The position numbers and the translations under genes were made by a program. From the NCBI GenBank assembly GCA_026989055.1, contig JALSKC010000021.1, forward strand, positions 1-64,000: DNA of 64,000 bases, read 5' to 3'. How positions within the stretch are numbered: the stretch's first letter is position 1; every line of letters starts with the position of its first letter. Below, piece by piece: positions 27,777 to 29,401 of the stretch. The notes under the pieces were generated by a model. It made no database searches. It was not told the DNA's origin and was given only the letters and a program-made list of their open reading frames with translations. The DNA is from Paracoccaceae bacterium. GTDB lineage: Bacteria > Pseudomonadota > Alphaproteobacteria > Rhodobacterales > Rhodobacteraceae.

Positions 27777-28493
27777 TCAGGTCAGGCGAAACGGGAAGAG
27801 CGCCTGGTAATACGGCAGAGCCCTTTCGACGAGTTCCAGATAGTCGCCATCGAGGGTGGGTAAAGGCCCTTCCGGCCCGGCGAACCCGGTCGAGCGGTGC
27901 ACCGCGCCATACCAGTGTGATGCCCAGACACCATCGTCCGGGTGGCCGCCGGCGGGCCAGTGCAGCATCTCGGGGCGCCAGTCGAGCCCGAGCGCGACGC
28001 ACAGTCTTTCCAGCATTCCGGGCGGGTCGGCGCGAATGTCGGCGCTGTCCACCACCAGCGGCCTTTCCCCGGCGGCACGACATTGCTCGAACAGCTCCGC
28101 CTGCCGGCGGAAGCCGATGTCCTCAAGCGTCGGCGCTTCGCGCTTTTTCGCATAGCTTGCCACCACCCGGGCCGGATGGCGGATCAGAAAGACGTTCCTC
28201 ATTTGCCGGATCCACTCGCGCGGAATGCCCTCCACCATGTGATGGGCCATGTGCTTCTGGTAGAAATGCGCCTTTTTCCCCGGATTAGAGCCTGTTATCT
28301 GCGCCACCACCTGCCGCGGATCGGTCGGCTGGGCGGCCAGGATTTCATCGCGCATCGGGTGGTTCAGACCAGTCAGCGCGAGATAGGCCGCATAAAACGG
28401 TTCGTCGATCACGGCGCAGTCGCCGCGGGAGGCAAAGGCATACATCATCGCCGTCGAGAGGTTGCGCGGCCCCGACCACATGGCGATCTTCAT
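27777..28493 (-). CDS. Sulfotransferase-like protein
   Basis: 238 residues from ATG 28493. The first residues (MKIAMWSGPRNLSTAMMYAFASRGD) correspond to the PAPS 5'-phosphosulfate loop of sulfotransferases, with GPRNLST in place of the classic KSGTTW; a downstream FLIRHPARVVASY matches the 3'-phosphate-binding segment. It may transfer sulfuryl groups, but the acceptor is unknown. Its start overlaps the class IV aminotransferase stop by 4 bases, so the two are translated together. Confidence 0.75.
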   Translation of the reverse strand: MKIAMWSGPRNLSTAMMYAFASRGDCAVIDEPFYAAYLALTGLNHPMRDEILAAQPTDPRQVVAQITGSNPGKKAHFYQKHMAHHMVEGIPREWIRQMRNVFLIRHPARVVASYAKKREAPTLEDIGFRRQAELFEQCRAAGERPLVVDSADIRADPPGMLERLCVALGLDWRPEMLHWPAGGHPDDGVWASHWYGAVHRSTGFAGPEGPLPTLDGDYLELVERALPYYQALFPFRLT

Positions 28494-29401
28494 CCGTCGC
28501 ACTCCTGCCGGATCAGCTCCTTGTAGAGATGGCGCAGCCGGGCGGTGACCGGCCCCATCCGGCCATCGCCTATCCGCCGCCCGTCGATCTCGGAAACCGG
28601 GGTCTGGGCACCGAAGGTTCCGGTCAGGAAGGCCTCGTCGGCCCCGTAAGCCTCGACCAGCGAAAAATTGCGCTCGAACACCGGGATATCGTGTTCGCGG
28701 CACAGCTCGATGACCTTCCGGCGGGTGATCCCGTTCATGCAGTAGTCGCCGGTCGAGGTCCAGACCTCGCCCTTGCGCACGATGAAGAAGTTGCAGGAAT
28801 TCGTGGTGTTCACGAAGCCATGCACATCCAGCATCAGCGCCTCGTCGGCGCCAGCCTTTTCGGCAGCGATGCAGGCCAGGATGCAGTTCAGCTTGGAGTG
28901 GCTGTTGAGCTTCGGATCCTGGCTCATCGGCAGGCCGCGGACATGCGGCACGGTGGCCAGCCGGACCGGACGCGGCAGGGCCGGGCGGGAATGCTCCGCG
29001 ATGATCACGACGGTCGGCCCCGAGCGGCTCAGCCCCGGGTGCTGGAAGGGGCGGGCCTTGGGACCGCGAGTGACCATCAGCCGGGCATGGGCGTCGTCGT
29101 GCATGCCGTTCGCTCGCCGTGTGGCATCGAGCGCATCGGCAAGCTGCTGCCTGCTCATTCCGATGTCGAGGTCGATTGCCCGGGCCGCCTCGAAAAGCCG
29201 CTCCAGGTGCTCGTCGAGGAAGGCCCATTTTCCACCGTACAGCCGCAGCCCTTCCCAGACCCCGTCTCCGAGCATGAAACCGCTGTCGTAAACGCTGACC
29301 ACGGCCTCGTCACGGGGGACGATCCGCCCGTTCACATAGATCTTCAGCTGCGCGTTGCGCGGATCCTCCTCGGCCTGGTGCGTGCTGATACGCGCATTCA
29401 T
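28490..29401 (-). CDS. Class IV aminotransferase (branched-chain aminotransferase-like)
   Basis: 303 residues from ATG 29401. Fold type IV motifs: GDGVWEGLRLYGGK (about 46-59), the PLP lysine in NSHSKLNCILA, and GTFGAQTPVSEIDGR near the C terminus. The position usually held by a glutamate that contacts the PLP ring nitrogen (V-x-E-x-x-x-x-N in BCATs) reads VNTTNSCNFF, so that acid is absent. Related enzymes act on branched-chain or D-amino acids or on aminodeoxychorismate; the substrate cannot be told here. It overlaps the sulfotransferase-like gene. Confidence 0.82.
   Translation of the reverse strand: MNARISTHQAEEDPRNAQLKIYVNGRIVPRDEAVVSVYDSGFMLGDGVWEGLRLYGGKWAFLDEHLERLFEAARAIDLDIGMSRQQLADALDATRRANGMHDDAHARLMVTRGPKARPFQHPGLSRSGPTVVIIAEHSRPALPRPVRLATVPHVRGLPMSQDPKLNSHSKLNCILACIAAEKAGADEALMLDVHGFVNTTNSCNFFIVRKGEVWTSTGDYCMNGITRRKVIELCREHDIPVFERNFSLVEAYGADEAFLTGTFGAQTPVSEIDGRRIGDGRMGPVTARLRHLYKELIRQECDG

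Follow-up and report, generated by a model that had tools for sequence, protein, structure and literature searches.

A conserved gene pair encoding a predicted sulfotransferase and a class IV aminotransferase-like protein without the Schiff-base lysine

The window, the whole 64-kb stretch of DNA that was analysed, carries two overlapping genes that encode a class IV aminotransferase-like protein (hereafter AT) and a Sulfotransfer_5 protein (ST). The two genes form a conserved pair, and the two proteins also occur together in genomes in which their genes are unlinked. ST has the fold and site residues of a sulfotransferase, and AT has lost the lysine and the glutamate that are characteristic of class IV aminotransferases. 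The conservation of the pair hints at a step in small-molecule metabolism that takes two proteins and is as yet unexplained. The reading that we favour, with moderate confidence, is that of a two-protein module for small-molecule sulfation, in which the AT-like part would carry out no ordinary transamination and would instead process or present a compound for ST.

Architecture of the gene pair

Both genes lie on the minus strand (Table 1). AT starts with an ATG at 29401 and ends with a TGA stop codon at 28490–28492, and the start codon of ST is an ATG at 28491–28493. An earlier note on this DNA, made before any database search, had claimed that the two genes overlap by four bases; the shared ATGA bears this out, and the coordinates that it gave are exact. 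In Pfam, AT matches PF01063 (Aminotran_4) with 145.8 bits against a cut-off of 28.5, and residues 1–232 of ST match PF19798 (Sulfotransfer_5) with 308.4 bits against a cut-off of 23.2. Read by eye, the open reading frames upstream of AT on the same strand encode a MtaB/MiaB-like methylthiotransferase and DapF, and a convergent ArgG lies downstream of ST.

Table 1 Coordinates in the window of the AT and ST genes and of the residues discussed in the text
Feature	Position	Strand	Basis
AT: class IV aminotransferase-like protein, 303 aa	28490..29401	-	ORF, Pfam, PDB match 7z79
ST: Sulfotransfer_5 protein, 238 aa	27777..28493	-	ORF, Pfam, sulfotransferase fold of model
Shared ATGA (stop codon of AT, start codon of ST)	28490..28493	-	DNA read directly
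AT R53, expected phosphate-site arginine	29243..29245	-	R in 121/122
AT motif N166-S-H-S-K170	28892..28906	-	N166 where Schiff-base lysine expected
AT T199, replaces Glu expected at PLP ring nitrogen	28805..28807	-	Alignment
ST SGPRNLST, strand-loop-helix	28452..28475	-	No variation at S7, G8, P9, R10, N11, S13 or T14 among 19 diverse sequences
ST K80...H85, candidate catalytic residues	28239..28256	-	Same residues in all 58 close and all 19 diverse sequences
ST R105...S113	28155..28181	-	Both invariant in 19 diverse sequences

Conservation and co-occurrence of AT and ST

We searched 398 sampled genomes of the phylum, the source genome included, with PF19798 and with the AT of the window. A match of at least 179 bits was taken as a close ST; the next score is 80, and the boundary was placed in this gap after the scores were known. 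AT was called at E ≤ 1e-50. PF19798 matches occur in 38 of the 398 genomes, and 37 of these hold a close ST; the remaining matches, at 56–80 bits, are second copies in three genomes and a single weak ST (61.9 bits) in a genome without AT (G344). AT is found in 41 genomes and is present in all 37 of those with a close ST; the other four (G247, G280, G222 and G334) have AT without ST. The one-sided Fisher p value for the co-occurrence, which ignores relatedness, is 5e-48, or 2e-46 if G344 is counted as having ST.

In 28 of the 37 genomes the genes lie next to each other, on which ground a chance overlap was rejected. These comprise 14 of the 23 genomes in the family of the source genome (probably Rhodobacteraceae, judged by named matches, and called the own family below) and all 14 outside it. 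The order is AT–ST in 26 of the adjacent pairs and ST–AT in the other two (G032 and G339). Outside the own family, the flanking genes vary between genomes and the pair is constant, as read by eye in 13 of the 14 genomes. Both genes are present and lie apart in the remaining nine genomes, all from the own family, each with its AT elsewhere in the genome (68–71% identity). Conversely, the four sampled own-family genomes without ST also lack a close AT, their best class IV match having 33–37% identity.

Among the best 80 of 568 ST relatives in named genomes, which are mostly from Rhodobacteraceae, AT lies upstream of ST on the same strand at 59 loci. The genes overlap by four bases at 20 of these and by one base at 19; the spacing is 753 and 775 bases at two loci and between −10 and 76 bases at the rest. 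No AT lies within 4 kb of ST at the other 21 loci (one of which, L097 in G534, is probably the sampled genome G319, as coordinates and score agree), and an AT is present elsewhere in the genome in all 21 cases, with 67–72% identity in 18 and 50–54% in three. In 3 of the 21 genomes, the only close AT is of the transporter-linked kind described below, which may do something else. The conserved pairing that the earlier note had proposed thus extends well beyond the source genome, with the proteins co-occurring even when unlinked. An MsrA-like gene lies beside ST at 19 of the 21 named loci without an adjacent AT (for example, L099 and L110), as if an AT gene that once stood between the two had been deleted or relocated.

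The pair is also present in Alteromonas sp. KUL49 and in an Alteromonadaceae MAG (L155 and L147; AT 71–72% and ST 59–60% identity). In the tree, the AT of these two branches inside the clade of the own family, which suggests that AT and ST may have been transferred jointly. Distances in the AT and ST trees correlate with r = 0.61 across the 37 genomes and r = 0.30 within the own family; the agreement is no more than moderate, and as evidence of co-evolution it is weak and was not used as support. Of the 149 genomes of family f49, two have AT and ST was found in none, the controls of the latter search likewise giving no match.

Fold and predicted site of ST

The ST model (pLDDT 95.1) has the sulfotransferase fold, with 4gox (Z 14.8 over 213 residues, 3.7 Å), human TPST1 (14.6) and CurM (14.5) as its top structural matches. 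Foldseek alone gave TM-scores of approximately 0.4–0.6, with some nucleotide kinases further down the list. A search of the PDB with the single ST sequence returned chance-level matches only, and a search of PHROGs and phage records returned no match for ST. A profile of 19 diverse ST sequences found CurM (3.1e-8) and the olefin synthase (1.1e-7) as its best matches among solved chains; its alignment to CurM covers R105...S113, and both residues match the Arg and Ser of CurM. The identity between ST and solved sulfotransferases is about 15%.

The SGPRNLST region, which links strand 2–7 to helix 13–21 in the model, is what we take to be the predicted 5'-phosphosulfate-binding site, and R105 and S113 presumably form the expected 3'-phosphate site. 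Pfam, the model and the CurM alignment all point to a PAPS-type fold with its site residues, as the earlier note had supposed for this half of the pair. The best profile and top structural matches, the sulfotransferase domains of CurM (4gbm) and of the olefin synthase (4gox), are domains of polyketide synthases, whereas ST is a separate protein. Those domains sulfate a beta-hydroxyl before elimination.

Lost catalytic residues of AT

AT shares with the class IV aminotransferases (BCAT and D-amino acid transaminase) the PF01063 domain, fold type IV and most of the phosphate-site residues; it differs from them in lacking both the Schiff-base lysine and the ring-nitrogen Glu. All 50 structural matches among those listed are of fold type IV (Z 23–28). 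None of the 18 NCBIfam models reaches its cut-off for AT, the best match below cut-off being named branched-chain aminotransferase.

We aligned 122 AT sequences, 41 from the 398-genome sample, 59 from adjacent named loci and 22 from f49 and the unlinked named genomes; a few loci are represented twice. Asn stands at position 166 in all 122, and the Schiff-base lysine is without exception absent there. At position 199, 111 sequences have Thr and 11 have Ser. In a gapless alignment with the archaeal BCATs 5cm0, 5e25 and 5mqz, N166 lies opposite the Schiff-base lysine and T199 opposite the Glu, both of which these solved enzymes keep; the ring-nitrogen Glu is also kept in six control class IV proteins. 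The AT model has a pLDDT of 71.7, with residues 148–175 and 199–202 below 50, and does not decide where the lysine would be located; for this we used the spacing of residues in the sequence together with the titles of 7z79 and 9j32.

The entry 7z79 is an aminotransferase-like protein from Variovorax paradoxus with 49% identity to AT (E 1.8e-86) and a common fold (Z 27.9). It carries the same NSHS motif, in which its N174 corresponds to N166 by counting along the alignment, and has R where AT has K170 and S where AT has T199. It is titled only 'aminotransferase-like', and 9j32 is the N174K mutant of the same protein.

Three further AT residues, His168, His105 and Arg107, are each present in 122 of 122 sequences. 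The expected phosphate-site residues, which we take to be the arginine R53 and the two threonines T226 and T262, are similarly retained (T226 in 122 and T262 in 120 sequences; for R53, see Table 1). These residues are a weak criterion, because five of the six control class IV proteins in the same alignment lack R53 and T262. Five loci encoding proteins similar to D-amino-acid transaminase (L182 and L053–L056) have Ser or Cys at the position of the expected phosphate-site Arg.

Because every aligned member lacks both the lysine that would form the Schiff base and the Glu at the pyridine nitrogen, it is unlikely from the sequences that the AT-like protein runs an ordinary amination step. What stands of the 'aminotransferase' in the earlier note is the class IV domain and fold; the ordinary step that the name implies is doubtful, both residues being absent in 122 of 122 sequences.

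A transporter-linked branch of AT

Position 170 of AT is Lys in 111 of the 122 sequences and Arg in 11, and it changes together with position 199 without exception: 111 sequences have K170/T199 and 11 have R170/S199. This coupling suggests that the two positions may touch in the ligand pocket. Four of the 11 R170/S199 proteins are paired with ST (G032, G147, G256 and G259). For the other seven (G247, G222, G334, G445, G544, G548 and G550; loci L076, L078, L079, L185, L210, L211 and L212), the gene directly follows those for the permease and the ATPase of an amino-acid-type ABC transporter, and the K/T-type AT of two genomes (G388 and G390; L080 and L088) follows a different amino-acid-type ABC transporter. 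The position of AT after such genes suggests that its ligand is amino-acid-like. Since transporter-linked AT occurs where ST is absent, AT can act without ST.

A sulfation module and its alternatives

In the sulfation module that we favour, AT probably acts before ST, because ST is found only with AT, whereas AT is also found without ST. The AT-like protein would hold a phosphorylated ligand, of the pyridoxal type or otherwise, in its retained phosphate pocket and, without the Schiff-base lysine, would not run an ordinary ping-pong transamination. It would instead process or present an amino-acid-like compound, which ST would then modify, using the sulfuryl group of PAPS to sulfate a small acceptor at either a hydroxyl or an amino group. 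Both the use of PAPS by ST and the membership of the two proteins in one pathway are what we infer from the evidence above.

A more far-reaching version, which we put forward tentatively, is that a fold-type-IV family, having lost both the lysine of the Schiff base and the carboxylate at the ring nitrogen, carries out a different reaction, with the invariant His168 in acid–base catalysis, and that this reaction is coupled to sulfation. AT would then work with a bound ligand, be it pyridoxal phosphate, pyridoxamine phosphate or some other phosphorylated compound, and the sulfate would either be installed on the product of AT or be the group that leaves during the AT reaction. In the PMP-dependent sugar dehydrases, a His in place of the Lys has an acid–base role.

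AT might also be a catalytically inert partner of ST, serving as a scaffold, a ligand sensor or an acceptor carrier. The loss of both canonical catalytic residues from a protein that keeps the fold and most phosphate-site residues would fit such a role, as would the strict presence of AT wherever a close ST is found. We nevertheless consider it doubtful, as AT occurs without ST after amino-acid-type ABC transporter genes (G247, G222, G334 and G445), and the invariance of positions 105, 107, 166 and 168 in the 122 sequences fits catalysis or tight ligand binding.

It is improbable that AT is a true transaminase in an ordinary two-step pathway of the kind that the earlier note proposed, with K170, four residues past N166, as a relocated Schiff-base lysine. 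This idea draws on the prevalence of Lys at position 170 and on a control protein from the source genome itself (L183, with an SHAK motif), the lysine of which MAFFT placed in the K170 column, an arrangement that needs a five-residue gap. Against it, position 170 is Arg in the 11 sequences noted above and in 7z79, and the spacing to the following conserved Gly is 14 residues from K170 and 18 from N166, compared with 18 from the lysine in five controls and 19 in the sixth. Furthermore, the depositors of 9j32 changed the equivalent of N166 to Lys, and the ring-nitrogen Glu is lost as well.

That AT and ST are co-inherited and co-transcribed and yet serve separate pathways is likewise improbable: the weak agreement of tree distances within the own family and the existence of AT-only genomes would allow it, but 9 sampled and 21 named genomes have both genes although these are unlinked, and 4 lack both.

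Relation to described systems

Proteins such as AT may be annotated as branched-chain aminotransferases although the family lacks the residue that this enzyme needs. A lysine-less PLP-fold family together with a sulfotransferase points to uncharacterised chemistry and, in proteobacteria from the sea and elsewhere and possibly in plants, to an uncharacterised sulfated metabolite. Plant 'branched-chain-amino-acid aminotransferase-like' proteins combine a class IV domain with a sulfotransferase-like one in a single chain; if these are part of the same system, it extends from bacteria to plants. No AT–ST fusion was seen among the loci examined. The pair is small enough for direct expression and assay, and a relative of AT has already been solved.

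The earlier note had called the system undescribed. This fits the pair, in that a search of one open library with exact terms found nothing on AT–ST or on 7z79, and the terms looked for do not occur in PMC9309667; the AT half, however, is represented in the PDB (7z79 and 9j32).

PAPS supply and distant homologues of ST

APS kinase is present in 36 of the 37 ST genomes; this co-occurrence is uninformative, because APS kinase is also present in all eight comparison genomes without a close ST. In G032 (L034 and L172), which has the reversed pair ST–AT, an APS kinase match was not found.

Distant ST homologues occur on plasmids (four records, 29–31% identity over 99% of ST); these Sulfotransfer_5 proteins belong to natural-product clusters of Dolichospermum and Streptomyces. 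The three stretches that were opened contain no annotated aminotransferase, unlike the AT–ST pair. PAPS-making genes lie near the homologue in two of the three, namely an APS kinase in Dolichospermum and cysC/cysD in one Streptomyces; the stretch opened around the second Streptomyces homologue contains no APS kinase gene. The Dolichospermum cluster presumably resembles that of saxitoxin, in which SxtN sulfates a nitrogen.

Pairing of ST paralogues with AT was considered and rejected: the distant copies (L032 and L039–L041) have no AT nearby and have different neighbours. Two of these distant Sulfotransfer_5 genes, L039 and L040, from two genomes, share a small neighbourhood that, by eye, includes a Rieske-type oxygenase and a second, uncharacterised protein of about 275 aa.
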